A stretch of 64,000 nt of DNA, taken from NCBI GenBank assembly GCA_002600635.1, contig CP021373.1, positions 1 through 64,000 on the forward strand. The letters are read 5' to 3'. Below the pieces are notes generated by a model, which saw nothing but the letters and a program-made list of their open reading frames with translations, did not search any database and was not told where the DNA came from. A program made the position numbers and the translations under genes. This document shows, piece after piece, positions 6,688-47,806 of the stretch. The stretch's first letter is position 1. Each line of letters opens with the position of its first letter. This DNA comes from Rhizobium sp. ACO-34A (GTDB taxonomy: Bacteria; Pseudomonadota; Alphaproteobacteria; Rhizobiales; Rhizobiaceae).

Positions 6688-7557
6688 ATGACAGAGAAAA
6701 CATCCTTTCGCGTCGGCCTGATCGGCGCCGGCATTCAGCGTTCCAAATCACCGGCGCTGCACATGCGCGAAGGTGCGGCCCACGGGCTCGACTATATCTA
6801 CGAGATCGTCGACGTGACTGCGCGTAAACTGCCCGACAGCGCCCTTCCCGACCTTCTGGACGAGCTGGAGGCGCGCGGCTTTGCCGGCACCAACATCACC
6901 CATCCGTTCAAGCAGGCGGTCATTCCCTTCCTGACCGAGCTTTCGGACGATGCCCGCATGCTCGGCGCGGTCAACACCGTCGTCTTCAGCGATGGCAGGC
7001 GCATCGGCCACAACACCGACTGGTACGGTTTCCATGAGAATTTCGTGCGCGGCCTGCCGGATGCGAAGCTCGACCGCGCGCTGCTGGTCGGCGCCGGCGG
7101 CGCCGGCGTCGCGGTGGCCCATGCGGCGCTGAAGCTCGGGATCAAGCGGCTCGACATCTTCGACCGGGACCGGACGCGGGCCGGAAAGCTGGCCGGCGAT
7201 CTCAATGGGCGCTTCGGTGCTGGGAGGGCCTTCGCCGTCGACGATCCCGCCTCCTCCCTGCCCCATGCCGACGGTCTCATCAACGCCACCCCCATCGGCA
7301 TGCTCGCCCATCCCGGCATTCCGGTTTCGCCCGATCTTCTCGAGCCTCGCCACTGGGTGGCCGATATCGTCTACGTGCCGCTCGTCACCGAGCTTCTGGC
7401 GACGGCGAAGGCGAAGGGATGCCGCACGCTGCAGGGCGGCGGCATGACGGTGTTCCAGGCGGTCGAGGCGTTTCGCCTGTTTTGCGGCCGCGAGCCGGAT
7501 GCGGAGCGCATGACCGCCCATTTCAACGAAATCTGTGCCGCGGAGGGCAATGCATGA
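6688..7557 (+). CDS. Shikimate/quinate dehydrogenase family protein (AroE-like, probably NAD-dependent)
   Basis: A 289-residue member of the shikimate dehydrogenase family that interconverts shikimate and 3-dehydroshikimate, or quinate and 3-dehydroquinate. Substrate motifs are present: SKSPALH near residue 18, NITHPFKQ with the catalytic Lys, and HNTDWYGF with the catalytic Asp. The Rossmann loop is GAGGAGVA. The strand that binds the cofactor ribose ends [12 protein letters not shown]; an acidic residue here, instead of the NRT of biosynthetic NADP-enzymes, points to NAD and a catabolic role as in the Corynebacterium QsuD-type enzymes. It overlaps aroQ by four bases (ATGA), so the two are translationally coupled. 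Confidence 0.85.
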
Positions 7558-7991
7558 GCCTTTTCACCATCCTGAACGGTCCGAACCTGAACCTGCTGGG
7601 ACAGCGCCAGCCGGAAATCTATGGCCGGGAGACACTGGCGGATGTGGAGGCGGCCTGCCGGGAGATCGCCGAGACTGCGGGCCATGAAATCTTCTTTGCC
7701 CAGAGCAACCGCGAATATGAGCTGATCGACTGGATCCACGATGCGCGCGGCAGGTCCGCCGGCATCGTCATCAATCCGGGTGCCTTTACCCACACCTCGG
7801 TCGCGATCCTCGATGCGCTCAATACCTTCGAAGCGCCGGTGATCGAGGTGCATATCTCCAACATTCACAAGCGGGAGGTTTTCCGCCACCATTCCTATGT
7901 GTCGACGCGGGCGGAAGGGGTGATCGCCGGTCTCGGCGTGGAAGGCTACGAGATGGCGCTTCGCCACCTCATCGGCCGTCTTTCTCGATAG
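7554..7991 (+). CDS. aroQ: Type II 3-dehydroquinate dehydratase
   Basis: A 145-residue dehydratase that interconverts 3-dehydroquinate and 3-dehydroshikimate; the type II enzyme is a cytosolic dodecamer. Motifs span the protein: [11 protein letters not shown] at the N-terminus, the PEIYG segment with the catalytic Tyr, [22 protein letters not shown], and [17 protein letters not shown] with the active-site His and Arg. The start at 7554 is the ATG that overlaps the dehydrogenase stop. With the dehydrogenase upstream and the dehydratase QuiC1 nearby it most likely works in the catabolic direction. The last 23 bases overlap the convergent tetR gene. Confidence 0.92.
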
Positions 7992-8673
7992 CGCCGATAT
8001 GTTCGGCCTTCAGCACATAGCGCAACACCATGTCGGCGGCGTGGCGCGACAGCGTTTCCTGACCCTCGGGGGTGAACAGGCCGTCGCCGAAGATGAAGGC
8101 GAAGGTGGCGGCGTTCGACACGTTGAAGAAGGACAGCGCGCTGATCTGCCAGTGCAGCTCCAGCGGATCGACGCCGTCGCGGAAGACGCCGCTCTCCTGC
8201 CCGCGCCGCAGCACGCCTTCCAGAGCCTCGATCGCCGGGCGGTTCAGCCCGCGAATGGTCTCGGAAAGCTGCATGTGGCGGCCGTGATGGATGTTCTCGA
8301 TCATCACCATACGGATGAAATCCGGGTTGCGCCGGTGGTGCTCGAAGGTGAAGCGACAGAGCTTGTCGAGGGCGGCGACCGGCTCCAGCCCGTCCAGCTC
8401 CAGATCGCTCTCGCCGCCGCGCACCTTGCCATAGGCCTCGTCCAGAACGTGCTGGTAAAGCCCCTCCTTGTCGCCGAAATAATAGTAGATCATGCGCTTG
8501 GACGTGCGCGTGCGGGCCGCGATCTCGTCGATCCGCGCGCCGGAAAGGCCGTTCTGGGAGAATTCCTCCATGGCGACCGACAGGATATCGCGGCGAACGC
8601 CTTCGGGATCGCGTTTCGCCTGCCGGGGTTCCCGGGCTTGCCTGCCGTCGCTCGCCGCAGCGTTCGCTTTCAT
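7969..8673 (-). CDS. TetR family transcriptional regulator of the quinate/shikimate locus
   Basis: A 234-residue TetR repressor. The N-terminal helix-turn-helix is clear ([23 protein letters not shown] and [17 protein letters not shown], about residues 28-70); the C-terminal ligand domain is the long type with a [20 protein letters not shown] stretch. It is divergent from quiC1, with a shared promoter gap carrying the AACTAACTAGTACA element, and tail-to-tail with aroQ. Position and motif suggest it represses both the ABC-aroE-aroQ operon and quiC1 and is released by a pathway intermediate. Confidence 0.87.
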
Positions 8674-8716
8674 CGTCCATCCATCGCCGGGCTGGCCACG
8701 GGCCTGCCTTTGTATT

Positions 8717-8730
8717 AACTAACTAGTACA
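8717..8730. promoter_or_regulatory. TetR-type operator between tetR and quiC1
   Basis: AACTAACTAGTACA sits centrally in the 79-base gap between the divergent tetR and quiC1 starts. It matches 13 of 14 bases of the element in the ABC operon promoter at 3296-3309. The core ACTAACTAGT is close to a two-fold symmetric site (ACTAAC-TA-GTTAGT). Placement in the intergenic gap of a divergent regulator is the classic arrangement for autoregulation. Confidence 0.55.
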
Positions 8731-8752
8731 TAAAGCCGGAAAGGAAGGCAAT

Positions 8753-10687
8753 ATGGCCAGCTACGAGACAGGCAGACAGCGCGTGAAGATGCGGACCTCG
8801 ATAGCGACCGTATCGATCAGCGGGGATTTCCCGGAAAAGCTTGCGGCGATCGCCAGGGCGGGGTTTACCGGCGTCGAGATCTTCGAGAACGATTTCCTCA
8901 CCCATGACGCCTCGCCGCGGGAAGTCGCGGGCATGGCGCGCGACCAGGGGCTGGAGATCACCCTGTTCCAGCCCTTCCGCGATTTCGAGGGCATGCCGGA
9001 GCCGCAGCGCGCCCGCGTCTTCGACCGGGCCGAGCGCAAGTTCGACATCATGGGCGAGCTGGGCACCGACCTGATGCTGATCTGCTCCAACGTCTCGCCG
9101 ATCTCGCTCGGCGGCATCGACCGGGCGGCGGCCGATTTCTACGAGCTTGGCGAGCGGGCGGCAAGGCACGGCGTGCGCGTCGGCTACGAGGCGCTGGCCT
9201 GGGGCCGCCACATCAGCGACCACCGCGACGCCTGGGAGATCGTGCGCCGCGCCGGGCACGACAATATCGGCATCATCCTCGACAGCTTCCACACGCTGTC
9301 GCGCAAGATCGACGTCAACAGCATCCGGGCGATCCCCGGCGACAAGATCTTCATCGTGCAGCTTGCCGATGCGCCGCTGATCGACATGGACCTGCTCTAC
9401 TGGAGCCGCCACTTCCGCAACATGCCCGGCGAAGGCGACCTGCCGGTGGTGGATTTCATGCGGGCCGTCGCCGCGACCGGCTATGACGGGCCGCTGTCGC
9501 TGGAGATCTTCAACGATCAGTTTCGCGGCGGCTCGGCCCGGGCGATTGCCGAGGACGGCCATCGCTCGCTCGTCTACATCATGGATCAGGTGAAGCGGCT
9601 CGAACCCGACATCCGCATCGAGGTGCCGGACATGCCGGCGCGTGTGGCGGCCAGGGGCGTGGAGTTCGTGGAATTCGTCGCGGGCCCCTCGGAAAAGACC
9701 AATCTGGAGGAGCTTCTTGCCAGCCTCGGCTTTGCCCGTACCGGCGGCCATCGCAACCGCAAGGTCGATCTCTACACCCAGGGCGATATCCGCATCGTCA
9801 TCAACAGCGATATCGGCAGCGACAGCTTTGCCGGCGCTTCCTATTCGGTGCACGGGGCCAATGCCTATGCCTTCGGCATGAAGGTGGAGGATGCCGAGGC
9901 CACGGTACTGAGGGCCGCAGCCCTCGGTGCGCCGGTCTTTGCCGAACCGCGCCATGAAGGCGAGGTGGCGGTTCCCGCGATCCAGGGCGTGGGCAATGGC
10001 GTCATCTATTTCCTCGACGACACGCCGGCGCTCGCCTCGATCTGGACGAACGAGTTTACCCCGGTGGACGAGAAGCCCGCCGGAAACGCAGGCCTGACCC
10101 GCATCGACCATCTCGCTCAGACCACGCGCTATGACGAGATGCTGACCTGGCTTCTGTTCTACACCTCGATCTTCGAGACGCGGCGGACCCCGATGGTCGA
10201 CGTGGTCGATCCGGGCGGGCTGGTGCGCAGCCAGGCGGTGGAAAGCCTCGACGGCCACGGCTTCCGCCTGACGATGAACGGCGCCGACAGCCGCAAGACC
10301 TTCGCCGGCAAGTTCCTGGCGGAAAGCTTCGGCACCAGCATCCAGCACATCGCATTCGCCACCGACGACATCTTCGTGACCGCGCGCAACCTCACTACGC
10401 TCGGCTTCCAGGCGCTGCCGATCTCGCGCAACTACTATGATGATCTGGAGGCCCGGTTCGGGCTGGAACCCGATTTCTCCGACGCGCTGAGGGCGGCGAG
10501 CATCCTTTACGACCGCGACGAGGGCGGCGAGTACTTCCAGATCTACAGCCGCACCTTCGGCGAGGGCTTCTTCTTCGAAATCGTCGAGCGGCGCGGCAAT
10601 TACGGCGGCTACGGCGCGATGAACGCCCCCTTCCGCATCGCGGCCCAGCGCCGTCTGTTCCGGCCCGAGGGCATGCCGAGGGAATGA
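8753..10687 (+). CDS. quiC1: 3-dehydroshikimate dehydratase, QuiC1-type fusion with HPPD-like domain
   Basis: A 644-residue two-domain enzyme converting 3-dehydroshikimate to protocatechuate. The N-terminal TIM barrel (about 13-285) has metal ligands Glu146, Asp177, Gln203 and Glu251; counted from Met13 these are 134, 165, 191 and 239, which is the numbering I recall for the Pseudomonas QuiC1 enzyme. The C-terminal half (about 305-635) is an HPPD-like VOC fold keeping an intact 2-His-1-carboxylate set: His453 (RIDHLA), His532 (IQHIAF) and Glu609 (FFFEIVER). The start at 8753 has a strong AAGGAAGG site; a start at Met13 (8789) would match the recalled numbering but has a poor ribosome site. 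No protocatechuate ring-cleavage genes lie in this window. Confidence 0.9.
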   Translation: MASYETGRQRVKMRTSIATVSISGDFPEKLAAIARAGFTGVEIFENDFLTHDASPREVAGMARDQGLEITLFQPFRDFEGMPEPQRARVFDRAERKFDIMGELGTDLMLICSNVSPISLGGIDRAAADFYELGERAARHGVRVGYEALAWGRHISDHRDAWEIVRRAGHDNIGIILDSFHTLSRKIDVNSIRAIPGDKIFIVQLADAPLIDMDLLYWSRHFRNMPGEGDLPVVDFMRAVAATGYDGPLSLEIFNDQFRGGSARAIAEDGHRSLVYIMDQVKRLEPDIRIEVPDMPARVAARGVEFVEFVAGPSEKTNLEELLASLGFARTGGHRNRKVDLYTQGDIRIVINSDIGSDSFAGASYSVHGANAYAFGMKVEDAEATVLRAAALGAPVFAEPRHEGEVAVPAIQGVGNGVIYFLDDTPALASIWTNEFTPVDEKPAGNAGLTRIDHLAQTTRYDEMLTWLLFYTSIFETRRTPMVDVVDPGGLVRSQAVESLDGHGFRLTMNGADSRKTFAGKFLAESFGTSIQHIAFATDDIFVTARNLTTLGFQALPISRNYYDDLEARFGLEPDFSDALRAASILYDRDEGGEYFQIYSRTFGEGFFFEIVERRGNYGGYGAMNAPFRIAAQRRLFRPEGMPRE

Positions 10688-10752
10688 GGCCGGGCCGATG
10701 ACAGCCTGTCCGTAAAGGCCTGCGAGCCTTCCGGGCGGGTTGCCGGGACAAC

Positions 10753-11190
10753 TCAGACCGAACTGAGCAGCAGGCTCGTCTCGCTGTTCGAAACGCCGTC
10801 GATCATGCGCACCTCGCGCAGCACCCGGTCGAAATCGGAGAGGCTGCCGGCGCGGATATTGGCGATCAGGTCCCAGTTGCCGTTGGTGGTGTGCAGCGAG
10901 GAAATCTCGGGAATGCCGTGCAGCTTGCGGATGACCTGCGTCGTCGACTTGCCGATCACCTCGATCATCATCACTGCATGCACCGAGCGGTCGTCGTAAT
11001 CCTCCCGCACCCGGACCGTGAAACCCAGAAGCGTGCCGGTTCCCGTCAGCCGGTCCAGCCGGTTCTGCACCGTGCCGCGCGCCACGCCGAGCGCATCGGA
11101 CAGCTTTGCCAGCGAGGCGCGGCCGTCGATGCGCAGATGGGCGATGATGCGGCGGTCGAGTTCGTCGGGAATGTATTTGGCGACGTTCAT
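10753..11190 (-). CDS. Lrp/AsnC family transcriptional regulator
   Basis: A 145-residue Lrp/AsnC regulator: N-terminal winged helix with ELDRRIIAHLRIDGRASLAKLSDALGVARGTVQNRLDRL (about 10-50) and a C-terminal RAM domain (about 65-145) with IEVIGKSTTQVIRKL and GNWDLIANIR. It is divergent from the ornithine cyclodeaminase gene, so it probably controls that operon in response to an amino acid such as arginine or ornithine. An imperfect inverted repeat in the shared gap could be its site. Confidence 0.88.
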   Translation of the reverse strand: MNVAKYIPDELDRRIIAHLRIDGRASLAKLSDALGVARGTVQNRLDRLTGTGTLLGFTVRVREDYDDRSVHAVMMIEVIGKSTTQVIRKLHGIPEISSLHTTNGNWDLIANIRAGSLSDFDRVLREVRMIDGVSNSETSLLLSSV

Positions 11191-11262
11191 GGCTTCTCTC
11201 CCGGCTTCACCGCCGGATTAGCGATAATGACAATCAAGCTATACAATTTGCGCAGATTTCTG

Positions 11263-11284
11263 GCGAAAACAACATGGTTTTGCG
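11263..11284. promoter_or_regulatory. Candidate Lrp-type operator
   Basis: GCGAAAAC-N6-GTTTTGCG, an imperfect inverted repeat with AT-rich core, in the 153-base gap between the divergent lrp-like and ornithine cyclodeaminase genes. Lrp-family sites are typically AT-rich and weakly symmetric; the assignment rests only on position and symmetry. Confidence 0.35.
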
Positions 11285-11343
11285 ATTTCGGTTAGACGGT
11301 GCACCTTGCTAGCCTGAGCTTTGACCAAGCCAAGGAATCGTCC

Positions 11344-12390
11344 ATGCCGCAATCGCCCTCCGAAAAGGCTCTCATTCCCTTCGTCAGCGTCGAGAACATG
11401 ATGCGCCTCGTGCATCACGTCGGCATCGAGACGATGCTTGCGGAACTGACGGATGCGGTCGAGGAGGATTTTCGCCGCTGGGAGAGTTTCGACAAGACGC
11501 CGCGCGTCGCCTCCCATTCGCGCGAGGGCGTGATCGAGCTGATGCCGACCTCCGACGGCGATCTCTATGGCTTCAAATATGTCAACGGTCATCCGCGCAA
11601 CATGGCGGAAGGGCTGCAGACGGTGACCGCCTTCGGCCTGCTGGCCAAGGTTTCCACCGGCTATCCGGTGCTCCTGACGGAAATGACCCTGCTGACGGCG
11701 CTGCGCACCGCCGCGACCTCGGCGATGGCGGCCCGCCATCTCGCGCCCAAGGGCGCGAAGGTCATGGCGATGATCGGAAACGGGGCGCAGGCCGAATTCC
11801 AGGCGCTGGCGATGAAGGTCGTGCTCGGCATCGAGGAAGTCAGGCTCTATGACATCGACCGCCGGGCAACGGAAAAGACGGTTCGCAATCTTGAGGGAAC
11901 CGGCCTGCGGGTCACCGCCTGCACGTCGGCGCAGTCGGCGATCGAGGGCGCTGCGATCATCACCACCTGCACCGCCGACAAGCAGTTCGCCACCATCCTC
12001 ACCGACAACATGGTCGGCGCCGGCGTGCATATCAACGCCATCGGCGGCGACTGCCCCGGCAAGACGGAACTGCACCGCGATATCCTCCTGCGCGCCGACA
12101 CCTTCGTCGAATATCCGCCGCAGACCCGCATCGAGGGCGAGATCCAGCAGATGGCGCCGGATTATCCGGTGACCGAACTCTGGCGCGTGGTGCGCGGCGA
12201 GGCCGAGGGCCGGCGCGACGCCGGCCAGATCACCCTTTTCGACTCGGTCGGCTTCGCCACCGAGGATTTCTCCGCCCTGCGCTACGTCCGCGAAAAGCTC
12301 AAGGGCACGGATTTCTATCAGGAAATCGACATCATCGCCGACCCCGACGACCCGCGCGATCTGTTCGGCATGCTGCAGCGGGCGCGTTGA
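11344..12390 (+). CDS. ocd: Ornithine cyclodeaminase family protein
   Basis: A 348-residue member of the ornithine cyclodeaminase/mu-crystallin family, which deaminates L-ornithine to L-proline with bound NAD. The NAD loop is MIGNGAQAEFQALAM, followed by YDIDRRATEKTV where Asp ends the ribose-binding strand. The N-terminal part has SREGVIELMPTSDGDLYGFKYVNGHPRN with the substrate-binding Lys and Arg, and INAIGGDCPGKTEL carries the conserved Asp. The start at 11344 follows an AAGGAA site; an upstream in-frame start would add 15 residues. The next gene, ctlX, supplies ornithine from citrulline. Confidence 0.88.
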   Translation: MPQSPSEKALIPFVSVENMMRLVHHVGIETMLAELTDAVEEDFRRWESFDKTPRVASHSREGVIELMPTSDGDLYGFKYVNGHPRNMAEGLQTVTAFGLLAKVSTGYPVLLTEMTLLTALRTAATSAMAARHLAPKGAKVMAMIGNGAQAEFQALAMKVVLGIEEVRLYDIDRRATEKTVRNLEGTGLRVTACTSAQSAIEGAAIITTCTADKQFATILTDNMVGAGVHINAIGGDCPGKTELHRDILLRADTFVEYPPQTRIEGEIQQMAPDYPVTELWRVVRGEAEGRRDAGQITLFDSVGFATEDFSALRYVREKLKGTDFYQEIDIIADPDDPRDLFGMLQRAR

Positions 12391-22835: not shown

Positions 22836-22971
22836 CGTTATCCCAATGCCCCGGTTCCTTTACTTTTGAAGGGCCCGCGCGTGCCCGAGGAGGGTATGTC
22901 CTGCGCCTCTAGCCATGCGAACAAAAATGCCATATATGATCTATATTGACCATTATGGGCAGAATCGGACG

Positions 22972-23235
22972 ATGGGTCAAGCAGATCACCAGAAGTTTTT
23001 GACACCTGCCCTCTGTCGTGCGGCGCGGGGTTTCCTCGACTGGACGCAGAGCGATCTGGCGGATCGCTCGGGCGTTTCCCGAGGCACGATCCGCGACTAC
23101 GAGGGCGAGCGTCACAACGTTCACCGCTCCACGGAAGCACAACTGCGCCTCGCCTTCGAAAACGGCGGCCTCTCCTTCGTCTGCCTCGAAGGCGACAATG
23201 TCGGGATTTGCCCGAAGGGCGGGGCGGAAGGGTAA
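22972..23235 (+). CDS. Small XRE-type helix-turn-helix protein
   Basis: An 87-residue DNA-binding protein with a single Cro/CI-type helix-turn-helix (ARGFLDWTQSDLADRSGVSRGTIRDYE, about residues 18-44). The start is uncertain: ATG at 22972 gives the compact form, while an in-frame ATG at 22930 or the start at 22915 would add a short N-terminus. Similar short single-domain regulators are common in rhizobia as solitary genes. It is divergent from the pha operon, and an effect on it is possible but unproven. Confidence 0.7.
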   Translation: MGQADHQKFLTPALCRAARGFLDWTQSDLADRSGVSRGTIRDYEGERHNVHRSTEAQLRLAFENGGLSFVCLEGDNVGICPKGGAEG

Positions 23236-23751
23236 GGACCGGGGCAGTTTGGCTGGTGAGGGGCCGGGTGCGGACTGGCGGGTTTGGCACTTGGATCCGC
23301 TAAAGCGGACGTGGCCATGAAGACATCACCCAGTAAATGCAGCAGATTTTTGGTGGTCTTGGAAGGAGCACCTACTATCGCGCAAAAGCCTTGGAAGCCC
23401 GGCTCTCAGGGATGGCAAGGGGGATGCGATGTCCTCCTTTGTATCTTTGAACTGTATATTCCAACAGGATTGGCAAAGGGTTCCGGAACTTCTTTTTCCT
23501 TGGATTGCGAAGAGTTGGATTCAAATTCAATTATTTCAATATGTTAGTCGAATATTTTTTTACAGAAATTGCCTTCAAAAACGTCTTTAGAAATCAATGA
23601 CTTAGGAAGTCGGCGTAGATCAGAAATTGCAGGTGGGAGCGCCTAAGATAGCTTACAAACCTTAGAACGGGGCTTTAGGATCATGAAAGGACGCAATGTC
23701 TGACTCAACCCCTTGGTCATGTTGATGAATAAATCTTGACAATTTAAAAAC
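23236..23751. other. AT-rich accessory region without a supported gene
   Basis: About 515 bases in which composition shifts from GC-rich to AT-rich. Short frames exist but none has a ribosome site and protein-like sequence. The region looks like the border of an acquired segment that continues to about 25.6 kb. No tRNA or flanking direct repeat was recognised. Confidence 0.45.
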
Positions 23752-23780
23752 TTGACCGAATCATTTCGGCCTTCTATATA
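23752..23780 (+). promoter_or_regulatory. Sigma-70-type promoter of a candidate small RNA
   Basis: TTGACC (23752-23757), a spacer of exactly 17 bases, then TATATA (23775-23780). This is one of the best promoter matches in the window, yet no coding frame follows; a short hairpin-rich stretch and a terminator do. Confidence 0.6.
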
Positions 23781-23785
23781 AGGGG

Positions 23786-23849
23786 TGTTCATCTGCCAAA
23801 GGCAGAAGGAGCTCGAAAGCCGTCCATCTCCAGTAGAGGGCGGCTTTTG
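23786..23849 (+). ncRNA. Candidate small RNA, about 60 nucleotides
   Basis: From the expected start about six bases after the -10 to a terminator-like hairpin. The transcript would hold a small hairpin (CTGCC-AAA-GGCAG), a single-stranded AAGGAGCTCG stretch resembling a Shine-Dalgarno sequence, and a terminal stem AAAGCCGTCC/GGGCGGCTTT (one G-U pair) ending in TTTT. Its 3' end meets the stop of the minus-strand gene at 23853, so read-through would be antisense to that gene. It may be a regulatory RNA or part of the adjacent two-gene system. Confidence 0.4.
23815..23848. terminator. Bidirectional terminator hairpin
   Basis: Stem AAAGCCGTCC with GGGCGGCTTT around a 13-base loop, T-run on the plus strand and AAAAGCC/GGCTTT on the minus strand. 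It can end both the candidate small RNA and the minus-strand DUF3800 operon. Confidence 0.65.
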
Positions 23850-23852
23850 CCG

Positions 23853-24326
23853 TTAAAATGCAATTCCTTTTTTCTCTCTCTTTTCAAGATCCTTTAGTGT
23901 CCAGGTTTGGTCAATGTAAAAGGCCGTAACTAGCGATACAATTTTTGGCTTCTCAGCGAGAATAAGGACATATTTTTCGCTTTTAAGCCAGTAATACAGT
24001 TTTACTGTTCCGTCGCCTTCGGTGTAGCTGAATCGAGATACTCCGGGGGCCGTACCGTTTAGCAGCGCGGAAATCCAAGTGATTCTACGTGCGCGCGGTG
24101 GATCGAATAACCTATCCTCGCCCTTCCCTTTGGTGACGACGTGCCAGAACCCCTCCTCCTTGTCGTTGTCTATAAGGCGGGCGTCAAATACCAGCGTCTT
24201 TCCCCGCACAACAGGCGATGGAATACATTTGAATGTTGCCGTGAAGTGACCATAGAGAGAAGCGCAAACGTCATCCCAATTGCCGTCTGTTTGAGCTTGT
24301 TGTGGCAGCACCAGTTGATTGCACAT
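23853..24326 (-). CDS. Protein of unknown function coupled to DUF3800 gene
   Basis: A 157-residue protein I do not recognise. The start at 24326 lies two bases after the DUF3800 stop, so translation is coupled; an upstream start at 24347 would overlap it. The first about 45 residues contain WDDVCASLYGHFTATFKC; the second half reads FWHVVTKG, RLFDPPRARRITWISALLNG, and KLYYWLKSEKYVLILAEKPKIVSLVTAFYID in order. A conserved-looking His, a basic ARR helix and a final strand pair of YVLIL/IVSLVTAFYI resemble the layout of small BECR-fold nucleases (RelE, colicin D, barnase-like), but this is a guess from pattern only. AT-rich relative to the rest of the window. Confidence 0.6.
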   Translation of the reverse strand: MCNQLVLPQQAQTDGNWDDVCASLYGHFTATFKCIPSPVVRGKTLVFDARLIDNDKEEGFWHVVTKGKGEDRLFDPPRARRITWISALLNGTAPGVSRFSYTEGDGTVKLYYWLKSEKYVLILAEKPKIVSLVTAFYIDQTWTLKDLEKREKKGIAF

Positions 24327-24328
24327 GG

Positions 24329-25021
24329 CTATACCTGTGCCCGCCAAACAAAAATATTGAATTTCTGATACGACAACGGCGAAGAGTTGAGCATACTCCG
24401 CCCAATGTTCTCTTCGATGCGATGTACCATGTGCAGTTTGGTGGCGTTGGTAGTGAGGCCTCTATGCTTGTAAGTAAGAGCGCCGAGTAAAAAATCAGCA
24501 AGCTGCATAAGCTCGAGCTCATGAGAGCGCGCATGCTGAACTCGTGATATGAGTTCTCCGGTGAAATCGTACATGTTGTTGCAGAGAACATCACGAAGCT
24601 TCTGAACTTTAAACCGGCTTCGTGTATCCTTTATATCTAAGTATATCTCATTGCTTTCAGTAGTAGAGAGAATCTTATTCAGGAGCGAAAAATACATTTT
24701 GTAATAGAAGTCGTCGTGGCTTCCTTGATTAAATTTCGCATGGTCGAGTCCGCGCTTATTTGGAACCACCAAAGCTCGGAAATTCAGCGTATCATTTCCA
24801 AAGAACCAATCGATCAGTTCGGTATAGAATGAGATTTTGGAGTGTGAGACTTTCGTCCACTTCAGCTCGCCTGTCGCAGAATGTCGCCTTTTTATGTCGC
24901 GAATCTGCATAGAGAGTAGCTTCGTACTCGCTCTGGGAGCCCAAATCGCTCCGAAACTCATCACATTAGAATCGTCATTTTGCAAATGACACGATTCATC
25001 GCAGTAAATCGCTATGCTCAT
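24329..25021 (-). CDS. DUF3800 domain protein
   Basis: A 230-residue DUF3800 protein, a family with a predicted RNase H-like fold seen in mobile elements and defence islands. Family marks: the N-terminal strand IAIYCDESCH with Asp8, Glu9 and Ser10, the middle DIKDTRSRF strand with acidic residues, and the C-terminal LELMQLADFLLGAL helix whose Gln and Asp are typical. These acidic residues would bind metal. Composition is unlike the neighbours: the 60 bases from 24601 are 35% G+C (21/60) against 63% (38/60) from 30001, a sign of transfer. It is first in a two-gene operon. Function is unproven. Confidence 0.82.
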   Translation of the reverse strand: MSIAIYCDESCHLQNDDSNVMSFGAIWAPRASTKLLSMQIRDIKRRHSATGELKWTKVSHSKISFYTELIDWFFGNDTLNFRALVVPNKRGLDHAKFNQGSHDDFYYKMYFSLLNKILSTTESNEIYLDIKDTRSRFKVQKLRDVLCNNMYDFTGELISRVQHARSHELELMQLADFLLGALTYKHRGLTTNATKLHMVHRIEENIGRSMLNSSPLSYQKFNIFVWRAQV

Positions 25022-41730: not shown

Positions 41731-43092
41731 ATGAGCGACATCGATTTCCCGGCTTATCTCGCAGGCCAGCTGCAACAGCATCCACGCATCGTTCTGGCCA
41801 GTGCGCGCGTTCCCGTCAGCCTGCTTGGCGACGGCGCGCCGGAAGGTGCCGGCATCGACCGCGACGGAGCGGCGCTGGTGGACATTGTCATCGAGGCGGG
41901 CGTGGTGGCCAGCGTCAGTGCAAGTGAAGCGGCCGCTGCGGAACCCGATACGCCAGCGATCCGGCTCGAGGGCCGCCATGTCTGGCCGCTGCTGGTCGAT
42001 GCCCATGCCCATCTCGACAAGGCGCATATTCTCGGCCGCGCGCCCGAATCCGGCGGCACGCATCCCGGCGCGCGGGCCGCGACGACCGCCGACCGGCTCG
42101 CCCACTGGACCCGCGACGACATCCTGCGGCGCATGGAATTCGGCCTCGCGACGGCGGACGCCCATGGCGTCGCGGCGATCCGCACCCATCTCGACAGCCA
42201 TGAGGGACAGGCGGAGACCACCTGGGAAGCTTTTTCCGAGATGCGCAGCCGCTGGCGGGACCGGATAACCCTGCAGGCCGCGGGGCTGGTGCCGATCGAT
42301 GCCTATGGCACCCCCCATGGCGCGCGTCTTGCCGATATCGTCGCCGAGCATGGCGGGCTGATGGGCGGCGTCACCCGCGCCTCCGGCGGCACCCATGGCG
42401 CGGCGCTGGAGGATATCGACCTCCTGCTCGACCGCCTGTTCACGCTGGCGAGCGAACGCGGCCTCGACATCGACCTGCATGTCGACGAAGCCGCAAGCGC
42501 CGAGGCCCTGCCGCATGTGGCGCGGGCGACGATCCGGCATGGTTATGAGGGGCGCGTAACCTGCGGTCACTGCTGCTCGCTGGCGCTTCTGCCCGAGGAT
42601 GTGCTGCGTGAACGGATCGCGCTGATCGCCGATGCCGGGCTGTCGATCATCACGCTGCCGGCCGTGAACATGTATCTTCAGGGCCGCGAGGAAGGGCTGA
42701 CCCCGCGCTGGCGGGGCGTCGCCCCGGTCAAGGAACTTTCCGCCGCCGGCATCCGCGTCGCGACCGCCGGCGACAACTGCCGCGACCCCTTCTACGCCTA
42801 CGGCGACCACGACATGCTGGACACATGGCGGCAGTCGGTGCGCATCCTGCAGCTCGACCACCCCTATGCCGACGCCGCAGCCTATGCCGGCCCCTACCCC
42901 GCCGCGATCATGGGGATCGAACACGGCTCGATCCGCCCCGGCCGCCCTGCCGACCTGATGGTGCTGGAAGCCTGGACGCTCGACCAGGTCATCGCCCGCC
43001 CCCACTCCGACCGCACCATCCTGCGCAAGGGCGTCTTCGCTAACCGGGCTTTGCCTTCGTATAGGGGGCTGGAGGGATGTGATGGTGGGTAG
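41731..43092 (+). CDS. CodA-like amidohydrolase
   Basis: A 453-residue metal-dependent amidohydrolase related to cytosine deaminase. Metal motifs: LLVDAHAHLDKAHIL, IRTHLDSHEG, DIDLHVDEA, CGHCCSLALL and TAGDNCRDPFYAYGDHDMLDTW. The GHCCS segment is like that of triazine- and creatinine-type deaminases, whereas CodA carries HLTSMH there. So the substrate is probably an amino-heterocycle other than cytosine. A paralogue, codA itself, is at 32802. Weak ribosome site; the start is the first ATG with full N-terminal beta domain. Confidence 0.82.
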   Translation: MSDIDFPAYLAGQLQQHPRIVLASARVPVSLLGDGAPEGAGIDRDGAALVDIVIEAGVVASVSASEAAAAEPDTPAIRLEGRHVWPLLVDAHAHLDKAHILGRAPESGGTHPGARAATTADRLAHWTRDDILRRMEFGLATADAHGVAAIRTHLDSHEGQAETTWEAFSEMRSRWRDRITLQAAGLVPIDAYGTPHGARLADIVAEHGGLMGGVTRASGGTHGAALEDIDLLLDRLFTLASERGLDIDLHVDEAASAEALPHVARATIRHGYEGRVTCGHCCSLALLPEDVLRERIALIADAGLSIITLPAVNMYLQGREEGLTPRWRGVAPVKELSAAGIRVATAGDNCRDPFYAYGDHDMLDTWRQSVRILQLDHPYADAAAYAGPYPAAIMGIEHGSIRPGRPADLMVLEAWTLDQVIARPHSDRTILRKGVFANRALPSYRGLEGCDGG

Positions 43093-43561
43093 AGGCTTTG
43101 TGGCTGAGTGGACGTCGGCTCGGGTTGCGTGAATGAGGTTTGTGGGGTCGGGAGGGGACTGGCGGCTTTCAGTGAATGGTTGCGAAAAGCCGATATTCGC
43201 TTGGCGGATCGCAAATCGGCACCTTGGGCCAGGAGTGAACCGTCCTCTCAAGAAAGCCGATGATTACATAGCTGCCATTAAGCATGAGCGACCTCCATGT
43301 TAGCTTTTGTCCCAGTGTGGACGTTTAGGCCGAGACGGCTGGTTCTTGAAGCCAACGGCGAACGAAAAGAGGTAGCGAAGAATCGGTTCGATAGGTTCGG
43401 GGGTTGTGTTGGAACACGCCGAGATGTTTGGCTCGCGGCGCCATTCAAAACAATCGAAAATTATTCTACCTGCAGCACACGGATAAGCTGTTTACGATAG
43501 TCGTTTACGCGTGTAGTCCAATAGGAATATTGATGTATCCGCTCATTTTCGGTGATTACCC
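43093..43561. other. Upstream border of the helicase island
   Basis: A 469-base stretch in which composition drops from the GC-rich catabolic context. A few short frames (for example 43297-43500) lack ribosome sites and look random. It must hold the helicase promoter. No tRNA, integrase or clear direct repeats were seen. Confidence 0.45.
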
Positions 43562-46081
43562 ATGGTTGACTTCAAGAAAAAGCTTGGCGGCAAAGTCGTT
43601 GAGAAACAGACGGATCCCGTCAAACTCTATGACACATTGGATCGTGAAGCGGACAAAGGCCCCTTGCGTCCAGCCCAGATCGATGTCCTCAAGAAATGGT
43701 TTGAGATTGAAAGCGGCAAGCGAGACACAATCGTTAAGCTACATACCGGCCAAGGCAAGACGCTAATAGGCCTCCTTATGCTGCAATCGCGTCTAAACGC
43801 CGGCAATGGACCGGTGGTGTACATTTGCCCGAACAATTTCCTTGTCGACCAGACATGCGAGCAAGCACGCCAATTCGGAATAAGGACGTGTACGTCTGAA
43901 GGCGACCTGCCAGAGGATTTTATCGACGGTCGATCCATCTTCGTCACGTCGGTGCAAAAGGTTTTCAACGGCCAGACTAAGTTCGGACTTAACAAGCAGT
44001 CGTTATCGGTCGACACTATGTTGATGGACGACGCGCATGCTTGTTCTGACACGATCCGCAGCCAGTGCCGAATCCACATCCCCCGCAAAGAGGACGCCTA
44101 CAGCCTTTTGAAGGCGCTGTTTTCCGCCGATTTGGAACAGCAGGGCATGGGCACCTACGCCGACATAGAAAACGAGAAGCGAGACGCGTTCCTCCCGGTG
44201 CCTTACTGGGCGTGGATTCCCCGGGAAGCCGAGGTGGCTGGAATCCTTTCGAAAAACTCTGATCGCAAGGCAATTAAGTTCGCCTGGCCCCTGCTCAAAA
44301 ATCTTTTAACTCATTGCCAATGCGTCATTTCAGGGAATGCCGTCGAGATCGAGCCGTATATCGCACCGCTCGACGCCTTCGGTTCCTTCGACAAAGCCAA
44401 GCATCGCATCTTCATGTCAGCAACGGTCACCGACGACGCCTTCCTCGTCAAAGGCTTAAGGCTTTCGCCGGAGACGATCGCCAAACCGCTGACCTACGAA
44501 GGGGAGAAGTGGTCGGGCGAAAAAATGGTGCTGTTGCCGTCGCTCATTCACGAGGATCTGGACCATGGCTTGATTGTTGAGAAATTCGCAAAAAGCGGCA
44601 AGAAGCGAGCCTTCGGACGGGTGGCACTAGTACCTAGCTTCGATAAGGCAAAACCTTGGGAAAGCGGTGGAGCAGTGGTCCCGCAGACAGAGACTATCGG
44701 CGCGGTCATCGACGGGCTTTCACGAGGTGAGTTCGACGAGACCGTCGTCCTTGTCAACCGCTACGACGGGATCGACCTACCCGACAAGACATGCCGCGTC
44801 CTCATCTTCGACTCGAAACCTTACGCGGAGAGCCTTACGGACCTCTACGAGGAGCAATGCCGTCCGCACAGTGCCGCAACATTGATGCGTGCCGTCCGCA
44901 CCATAGAACAGGGCATGGGTAGAAGCGTGCGCGGCGAGAAGGATTACTCGGTCGTCATCGTCATCGGTTCGGACCTCGTCCGATTGCTTCGGGACAAGTC
45001 TTCTCGTCGGTTCCTGTCGTCGCAAATGGCTACGCAGATCGAGATCGGCTTGGAAATCACTGATATGGCTAGGCAGGACATCGAGGGCGGTGTAGAGCCT
45101 TGGCAGGCCTTTGTCGATCTAGCTAATAAATGTCTCAAACGCGATGATGATTGGAAGGCGTTCTATGCCGAGCAAATGGAGAAAGTTTTCGTCACCAGAT
45201 CCGATCAAACGGCTTTGAAGCTTTACAAATCTGAATTGGACGCTGAACTGGCGCATATAAGAGGCGACTACGCTGGGGCCGTTAAGCTAGTCCAGGCTAT
45301 CATCGACAAGGGCACGCTGGACGACGACGAGAAGGGTTGGCATCTGCAAAGCCAGGCACGGTACAACTTCCTGTCCAACCGTGCGGAAGCGGATATCTTG
45401 CAGATTGCTGCCCACAAGCGCAACCGGCTTCTCCTCAAACCGGCATCGGGAGTCACCGTCACAAAACTTACTGTGGTGAGCCAAGGCCGTGCCGAGCGCG
45501 TAAAGAAATGGATCAGAAATCACAACGACTATGCAGACCTCAATGTCGCTGTCACCGAGATGTTGGGCAGGCTGGTTTTCGGAACGCAGGCAGACAAGTT
45601 TGAGGCCGCTCTTAACGAGTTGAGTTTCGCTCTAGGTTTCGTCGGAGAACGGCCGGATGCGGAGTGGAAGGAAGGCCCGGACAACCTTTGGGCACTGGAT
45701 GACAGCCAGTACATTCTCTTCGAGTGCAAGAGCGAGGTCAGCATCACCCGTGCCGAGATAAACAAGCGCGAAGCGGAGCAGATGAACCGGTCGAGCGCGT
45801 GGTTTGAAAAGCATTACATGGGGATGAAGGTGGGGCGTCTCATCGTCCATCCAGCCGGAAAAATCGAAAGCGCTGCGGCGTTCACCCATGACGTGGAAGG
45901 CGTTCGAGAGTCAGACCTCAAGAAATTGGTCAAAGCAACGCGTGAATTCTTCAAATCGTTCGAAAACCAGAACCTCGACGATCTCACTGCTACATATATC
46001 CAAAAGGTCCTCGACTCGCACAAACTGTCGGTACCCGATCTTCTGTCGAACTACTCGCGCAAGCTCAAAGACATGAAATAA
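43562..46081 (+). CDS. SF2 helicase with C-terminal PD-(D/E)XK-like nuclease domain
   Basis: An 839-residue stand-alone protein. The N-terminal helicase has Walker A HTGQGKT (61-67), motif II MDDAHA (about 155-160), motif III FMSAT (283-287) and motif [12 protein letters not shown] (about 448-457). The C-terminal part, after a helical middle, carries [27 protein letters not shown] and ILFECKSEV, with Asp713/714, Glu721 and Lys723 as a PD-(D/E)XK-like site. Composition differs from the neighbours (60 bases from 45121 are 43% G+C, 26/60), and no partner gene adjoins it. Helicase-nuclease fusions of this kind are often phage defence genes; here that is inference. The ribosome site is weak. Confidence 0.8.
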
Positions 46082-46378
46082 GGTGAAACAGTGAAGTATC
46101 GATAAGTCTACAATCCTATACCAAGCAACCGGATTGTCTACGTTAGGGCATCCGGAATCAGCGGCTATTACGCAATCTATCTCAAGTTTGGAATGCACCT
46201 TATACATCCCTCCCGGCTGCTTTGGGGAATTGTTACGGCCCATTTGAACGACCGAAACGCAGGCGCAAAGCTGTCCGGAGGAAATCGAACTTCTGTGTCC
46301 GCTATGGCCAGACTGTGGGCGTAGCCGTTGGCCGGCATGAGCCCTCGCCACGCCCCAGTTGCCACACCCGCCCTCCAC
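46082..46378. other. Downstream border of the helicase island
   Basis: A 297-base gap between the helicase and the convergent 2-hydroxyacid dehydrogenase-like gene. No coding frame, hairpin or repeat that I could support. G+C rises again toward the right end. Confidence 0.45.
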
Positions 46379-47806
46379 TCAAGCCTTGGCCGGTGGTCCC
46401 TGCAGGCCGTTTTCACGGATGAGGGTGGAAAGGGTGTTGGTGTTGCGCAGCAGGGTTTCGAGGGCGGCGGTTGCGGCCTGGTCGAGGTGGCCTTCGGCGC
46501 AGGCCCTGGCGAGCGAGGCGGCGAGGTCGGCGATTTCGCGGGCGGCGGTTTCGAGGGATTTCAGTGCTGCTTCGTTGCCGGCGAAGCGGGCGAGGCCGCT
46601 GGCCGAGAGGCCGCCGATGCCGGTGGGCACCTGCGGGCCGGCGTCGGTGTAGCCTTCGGGAAGCGCGCCCTTGAGGTTGATGACGCGCTTTTCGACGATG
46701 GCCGCGAAGATCTGGTCGACCGCCTGCTTCGCGCCCGCGACGCGGGAGGGGTGATCGGTGTCGGCTGCGGCGTGGGGCAGAAGCTCCAGCCGGTCGCCAT
46801 GGGTCTCGACGAGCGCCAGATAGGGCAGCATAGGCCCGGAAAGCGCGCCGGTCTCCAGATTGCGGAAGAGATCGGCATCGATGGCCGCATGGCGCACCTT
46901 GCCAGAGGCGAGCGCGCGGCCGAGCGCCGGGACGTCGACCAGTTCGCCGCGGTCGTAGTTGATCAGCACCGCGCCGTCATTCAGCGCCGAGAGCACGGCG
47001 TCGCCGATCAGGCCGGAATTGCTCCAGCCGCCGGTTTCCGCAACGGGCTGGCCGAGGCCGACATGGACGCTGAGCGCATCCGCGCCGGTCGCAGCCTGAA
47101 CCGGATCTTCGGCATGGATGAAGCCTTCCGCCTCGATCCATTGCCGGTGGCGGGCGCGGGCATGGACCACGACATCCATGCCGAAGGCATGGCCGAGCTT
47201 TGCCACTTCGCGGCCGATATTGCCGTAGCCGATCACCGCGAGGCGCTTGCCTTCCAGCTTTTCGGTCGGAAAGTCGCGAAGCTGGCGGCCGGTGTCGAAA
47301 TCGCCCGCGGCGACGAGCGCATGCAGTTCGTCCACCGGCAGGTCGGGCACGACCTTCAGAAGCGCTTTCAGCACCATCTGCGCGGTGGCGCGGCTGTTGG
47401 TGCCCGGCGTGTTCATCAGCGGGACCGTTCCGCCCGCGCCGCTGCCGCCGCCCCAGGAGGCCGAGCCCATATTGCCGGTGCCGGCGCCGATCCTGACACC
47501 GCCGAGCGGAAACACGGTTTCCGCCGGCAGGAAGGTGGCGGCCGCGATCACCGCGTCATACTGGCCGTTTCCGGCGACGGCGAGAAGCTCTTCGCGGGTG
47601 CTGAGGTCGGGCAGGTAATGGAAATGCAGGCGACCGTCGGTGACGGCAGCCGGAGCGCTCATGTTGCCCCCCTTGTCGCCCTCATGGAAGACACCGCCCT
47701 TTTCCGCCACGTAACGCGCGATCTCGCTGTGATCCGGCTTGCCGTCAGCGAGCAGTTTCAGGCCCACCAGATCGCAGATCAGGATGTTGGCACCGTTCGT
47801 GGTCAT
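46379..47806 (-). CDS. D-isomer-specific 2-hydroxyacid dehydrogenase-like protein
   Basis: A 475-residue NAD(P)-dependent dehydrogenase of the phosphoglycerate dehydrogenase fold. The Rossmann loop is VIGYGNIGREVAKLGHAFG; the following strand ends VVVHARARHR, with Arg and His residues instead of Asp, which may favour NADP. The start at 47806 follows GGAGGATC, removing nine residues of the longest frame. The N-terminal part (GTGNMGSASWGGGSGAGG) is Gly-rich and unusual, and the C-terminal about 130 residues are helical without a readable ACT domain. Last gene of the catabolic operon; it probably reduces or oxidises a 2-oxo or 2-hydroxy intermediate. Confidence 0.75.
   Translation of the reverse strand: MTTNGANILICDLVGLKLLADGKPDHSEIARYVAEKGGVFHEGDKGGNMSAPAAVTDGRLHFHYLPDLSTREELLAVAGNGQYDAVIAAATFLPAETVFPLGGVRIGAGTGNMGSASWGGGSGAGGTVPLMNTPGTNSRATAQMVLKALLKVVPDLPVDELHALVAAGDFDTGRQLRDFPTEKLEGKRLAVIGYGNIGREVAKLGHAFGMDVVVHARARHRQWIEAEGFIHAEDPVQAATGADALSVHVGLGQPVAETGGWSNSGLIGDAVLSALNDGAVLINYDRGELVDVPALGRALASGKVRHAAIDADLFRNLETGALSGPMLPYLALVETHGDRLELLPHAAADTDHPSRVAGAKQAVDQIFAAIVEKRVINLKGALPEGYTDAGPQVPTGIGGLSASGLARFAGNEAALKSLETAAREIADLAASLARACAEGHLDQAATAALETLLRNTNTLSTLIRENGLQGPPAKA

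Follow-up and report, generated by a model that had tools for sequence, protein, structure and literature searches.

The window analysed here is the whole stretch comprising the first 64,000 nucleotides of contig CP021373.1 of Rhizobium sp. ACO-34A. A single intact open frame of 839 codons lies at positions 43562..46081 of its forward strand and encodes an SF2 helicase-nuclease, designated hna below. According to Pfam, its neighbors are an amidohydrolase gene on the left and genes for a 2-hydroxyacid dehydrogenase and an FAD-dependent oxidoreductase on the right. The gene, its motifs and the two segments defined by comparison with other genomes are as follows:

43562..46081, + strand: hna, 839-aa SF2 helicase-nuclease (PADLOC PDC-S28), identified from the open reading frame list, PADLOC, the PDB match and alignment
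43649..43678, + strand: HEL1, A30-D31-x-x-P34-x-R36-x-x-Q39, from alignment, with coordinates derived from residue numbers
43742..43762, + strand: Walker A HTGQGKT, residues 61-67 (K66), motif read
44027..44038, + strand: motif II DDAH, residues 156-159, motif read
44909..44932, + strand: QGMGRSVR motif, residues 450-457, motif read
45677..45730, + strand: PD-(D/E)XK-type active site, P706-D707 ... E721-x-K723, from alignment with the published equivalents P712/D713/E727/K729
43162..46368, no strand: hna-bearing segment; DNA similarity to one relative genome (G020) extends up to 43161 and starts again at 46369
43455..46154, no strand: DNA common to plasmid p2 of Rhizobium sp. NLR16a, 84.3% over 2705 columns, comprising hna with ~107 bp of upstream and 73 bp of downstream sequence

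The reading of this locus made from the sequence alone had placed the gene in a low-GC patch, and the base composition bears this out. GC content was 53.9% in the gene versus 63.1% in the window, and GC at third codon positions was 66.5% in hna compared to 81.5-87.0% in six genes located between 38350 and 53269. The flanks had GC contents of 51.8% (43093-43561) and 54.5% (46082-46378). Open reading frames of at least 90 aa that touch these flanks (43404-43766 on the + strand, 45911-46378 on the - strand, and a long antisense one over the left gene) overlap known genes and were judged not to be genes themselves. No tRNA was found in the window, there was no Rfam match at gathering thresholds, and mobile-element marks at hna were limited to short or imperfect repeats within 42900-46500.

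The best PADLOC model for the protein was PDC-S28 PDLC04986 (1015.2 bits, residues 1-836, E value printed as 0), and a second PDC-S28 model, PDLC04987, matched nearly the whole protein with 408.5 bits. PADLOC-DB 2.0.0 labels this family PDC-S28 only, where PDC stands for a defence candidate; the name Hna is absent there. Pfam recognized helicase parts only, namely ResIII, DEAD and Helicase_C_2 (PF13307, 35.5 bits). A search of PDB returned 10uj_A with 1226 bits, in which window residues 1-839 were aligned with residues 1-845 of 845 (E value printed as 0); 9yhn and 9ykj have the same sequence, and the next match after these three had an E value of 0.014. 10UJ and 9YKJ are the monomer and dimer of Hna from Sinorhizobium meliloti; the structure and the trigger of this protein were reported in Nat Commun in 2026 (PMC13381803), in a paper whose text does not name 9YHN. 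The hna gene of S. meliloti is located on pSymA under the locus tag SMa2245 (PMC12445080). The pSymA record of S. meliloti 1021 used here carried no annotation at this locus, and the 845-aa protein encoded there could be aligned with the PDB chain over all 845 residues with no mismatch.

The window protein and pSymA Hna were identical at 535 of 839 aligned positions (63.8%). The likeness is collinear over the full length, with the two proteins differing in size (839 versus 845 aa) by a six-residue gap after residue 52. Since S. meliloti Hna itself scored 1020 bits on the PDC-S28 model, PDC-S28 and Hna were equated as one family. The sequence-only reading had recognized no named system, and this does not hold: because the window protein matches the solved S. 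meliloti Hna over its whole length, the system is not an unnamed one, and its mechanism and structures have been published. Thus, the gene is an intact, divergent copy of the already published Hna, of which the protein is a clear relative, rather than a new system. Hna is said to have been first described by Sather et al. in 2023.

The helicase half was as had been proposed: HTGQGKT, DDAH, FMSAT (from residue 284) and QGMGRSVR were all in place in one 839-aa frame, and the protein thus has the SF2 motifs with the Walker A Lys as well as the ATP residues R36 and Q39. The nuclease site had been read correctly in part. E721 and K723, which lie in an FECKSE stretch starting at residue 720, were right, whereas Asp713/714 were not, since D707 is equivalent to the mutated D713 of S. 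meliloti Hna and is the catalytic Asp. Published mutants of S. meliloti Hna involve T30, D31 and P34 (dimer), R36 and Q39 (ATP), and P712, D713, E727 and K729 (nuclease) (PMC13381803). Eight of these nine residues are the same in the window protein (D31, P34, R36, Q39, P706, D707, E721 and K723); the exception is T30, which is replaced by A30, so that the dimer loop retains D31 and P34 and differs at the first position.

An alignment of 17 sequences, consisting of the window protein and 16 homologs chosen from the best 120 of 3531 matches, also supported this assignment of the active site: D707, E721 and K723 were conserved in 17/17 sequences, D713 in 16/17 and D714 in 13/17. In a second set of 39 homologs, the readable ones of 42 loci picked by hand out of 75, each of R36, Q39, D707, E721 and K723 occurred in 39/39, D31 in 35/39 and P34 in 36/39, while position 30 varied (His in 17, Ser in 17, Val in 2, Ala in 2 and Thr in 1). 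K66, D156, D157 and H159 were also present in 39/39, a result that is partly built in because the loci had been found by patterns derived from these two motifs. As for the C-terminal domain, which might have had a fold other than that of a nuclease, a PD-(D/E)XK fold is predicted by homology to the solved S. meliloti protein (63.8% identity), whose C-terminal domain is described as a PD-(D/E)XK nuclease (PMC13381803).

On these grounds we consider it highly probable (roughly 0.95) that the product of the gene is Hna and provides abortive-infection defence as a single protein, with a nuclease that would be restrained in an ATP-dependent dimer until a phage ssDNA-binding protein (SSB) sets it free. 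S. meliloti Hna is a Mg2+/Mn2+-dependent 3'-5' ssDNA exonuclease that is inhibited by ATP via homodimer formation, and the SSB of phage 5A breaks this dimer and releases the enzyme (PMC13381803). According to the same paper, DNA unwinding by S. meliloti Hna was not detected, and the word helicase therefore describes a fold. Conservation makes a shared mechanism the best reading for the window protein, and we infer by analogy that it would act in the same way. In the resting state, the protein would bind ATP and dimerize, with the nuclease domain disengaged; during infection, phage SSB would free the 3'-5' ssDNA exonuclease from the ATP-bound dimer; phage replication would then halt, and the cell would die with no phage released. 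In S. meliloti Rm5000 and Rm2011 strains cured of pSymA, hna by itself is enough to bring back complete phage resistance, and infected hna-bearing cells die without phage production (PMC12445080). This protection depends on the host, amounting to >10^6-fold in Rm5000 and <10-fold in Rm1021, where its weakness is attributed to a nolR frameshift (PMC12445080). Because protection varies with host background, a conserved hna need not protect the organism that carries it. Which phages the window protein would act against is likewise a matter of inference.

The protein could also be a member of the Hna family with a changed trigger or output, for example one that responds to a different phage protein signal, in which case the SSB-release model would be inapplicable as published. 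Such a change would be in line with the 36% of residues that differ from S. meliloti Hna and with the replacement of T30 by A30 in the dimer loop; however, the window protein retains D31, P34 and the ATP and nuclease residues that were mutated in S. meliloti Hna, and residue 30 is variable across the family. We regard this alternative as unlikely, and hold the same opinion of a related idea, that this branch of Hna, with Ala at position 30 of the autoinhibitory dimer loop, differs from S. meliloti Hna in its threshold or in its phage trigger, so that natural variation of the loop would tune self-inhibition. The value of the window protein is comparative: it is a natural Hna homolog in which one of the published dimer-loop residues is different, and it adds one divergent intact member to the family. 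Otherwise, the gene is an ordinary defence gene of a known kind.

A more distant reading is that the gene has a housekeeping function in DNA repair, as a helicase of the DinG/XPD or ExoDinG kind, and is not a defence gene. Hna is structurally similar to ExoDinG by the statement of the Hna paper itself (PMC13381803), and the window protein shares with ExoDinG, DinG and XPD an SF2 core with Helicase_C_2; weak DinG-type matches were also found (typeIV_DinG, 40.8 bits; dinG_rel, 20.8 bits). However, its scores on DinG/XPD-type NCBIfam models were only 13.5-20.8 bits against cut-offs of 247-789, compared to 1015 bits on PDC-S28, and the DinG/XPD assignment was rejected (bits/cut-off: YoaA, 17.3/680; DinG PRK08074, 14.5/789; dinG_rel, 20.8/547.7; rad3, 13.5/246.95). 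The Fe-S cluster of these helicases is absent from Hna, as stated in PMC13381803. In addition, the gene was detected in 6 of 200 relative genomes at E <= 1e-60, its own included, which is a poor fit to a housekeeping role. By orthology the protein is thus nearest to a defence protein, not to any repair helicase, and we consider the housekeeping reading extremely improbable. Two further candidates were also rejected: dnd_restrict_1, which was the best NCBIfam match (27.1 bits, cut-off 600), and Hef (23.0 bits, cut-off 610). Both matches reflect the common helicase core. Hachiman and Gabija are two-gene systems, and neither these nor Nhi occurred among the 10 PADLOC matches of the window protein at E <= 1, from which weak ones may have been filtered out. 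All three join helicase and nuclease parts for defence, as does Hna (PMC13381803).

The assignment to Hna is also consistent with the distribution of the gene. The five other matching relative genomes encode proteins 29-32% identical to the window protein, and the two that were scanned both gave PDC-S28. In a plasmid collection, 205 of 72,556 records had matches at E <= 1e-30, 200 of them with less than 60% identity. The nearest named relative in this collection, 91.5% identical, was found on plasmid p2 of Rhizobium sp. NLR16a. When window positions 42001-47500 were compared with this locus (L100), nothing beyond hna and its short flanks was common to both. A Gabija pair (L100 positions 7452-11743; PADLOC scores of 925.8 bits for GajA and 836.5 bits for GajB) is located directly upstream of the NLR16a gene on the same strand. 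The sporadic occurrence, the sharing of hna with short flanks only, and the adjacent Gabija genes fit a gene that may move between defence-rich places. A phage collection yielded one matching record out of 50,697 (44.3% identity); as this sole match is a 501-kb record named Salmonella, it was not taken as a case of carriage by a phage.

The absence of a partner, another feature suggested by the sequence-only reading, was confirmed across 75 homologous loci, in which clustering revealed no recurrent neighbor family: families other than hna occurred in at most 8 loci, the most frequent being one in 8/75 followed by two in 5/75. By eye, the family seen at 8 loci and one of the two seen at 5 were read as recombinases. 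This clustering used crude calls (ATG-started open reading frames of at least 80 aa), and many of the 75 loci were cut by contig ends. S. meliloti Hna is likewise published as a single gene (PMC12445080), and the earlier proposal of a stand-alone anti-phage helicase-nuclease proved right by orthology to it.

Among 60 genomes of the genus, G020 matched both flanking genes best, with 92% identity to the window for the left gene, whose copy reads with one stop, and 94% for the right gene. The 3.2-kb segment carrying hna was not found in this genome, and the two flanking genes are located ~330 kb apart in the coordinates of its contig (C26). Because of this distance, the comparison reveals a junction formed by rearrangement, which the hna segment marks, instead of a clean empty site. 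A clean empty site was not found among these genomes: G020 has both flanks but apart, and a second genome (G001) has the right flank only.

Given this separation of the flanks, the region may have been rearranged and hna might be carried along in it as a silent passenger. Such a view would also agree with the consensus promoter scan of 43050-46450, which found no site on the + strand and two on the - strand, compared to 1.9 in shuffled sequences; promoter- and terminator-like sites around hna were as many as in shuffles. However, sigma-70 consensus scans are weak evidence, the open frame is unbroken and keeps every nuclease residue, and ~107 bp upstream of the gene are common to the NLR16a copy. 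We therefore consider a silent passenger quite improbable.

Five flanking proteins examined with Pfam revealed no further named defence system adjoining hna. Elsewhere in the window, a DUF3800 protein is encoded at 24329-25021 on the - strand (PF12686, 54.4 bits; PADLOC PDC-M04A, 298.7 bits), within a low-GC patch at ~23000-25000, and is a possible second defence gene, ~18.5 kb from hna. A gene adjoining the same patch (22915-23235, + strand) codes for a small helix-turn-helix protein (HTH_3, 24.9 bits; PADLOC Control_protein, 44.1 bits).
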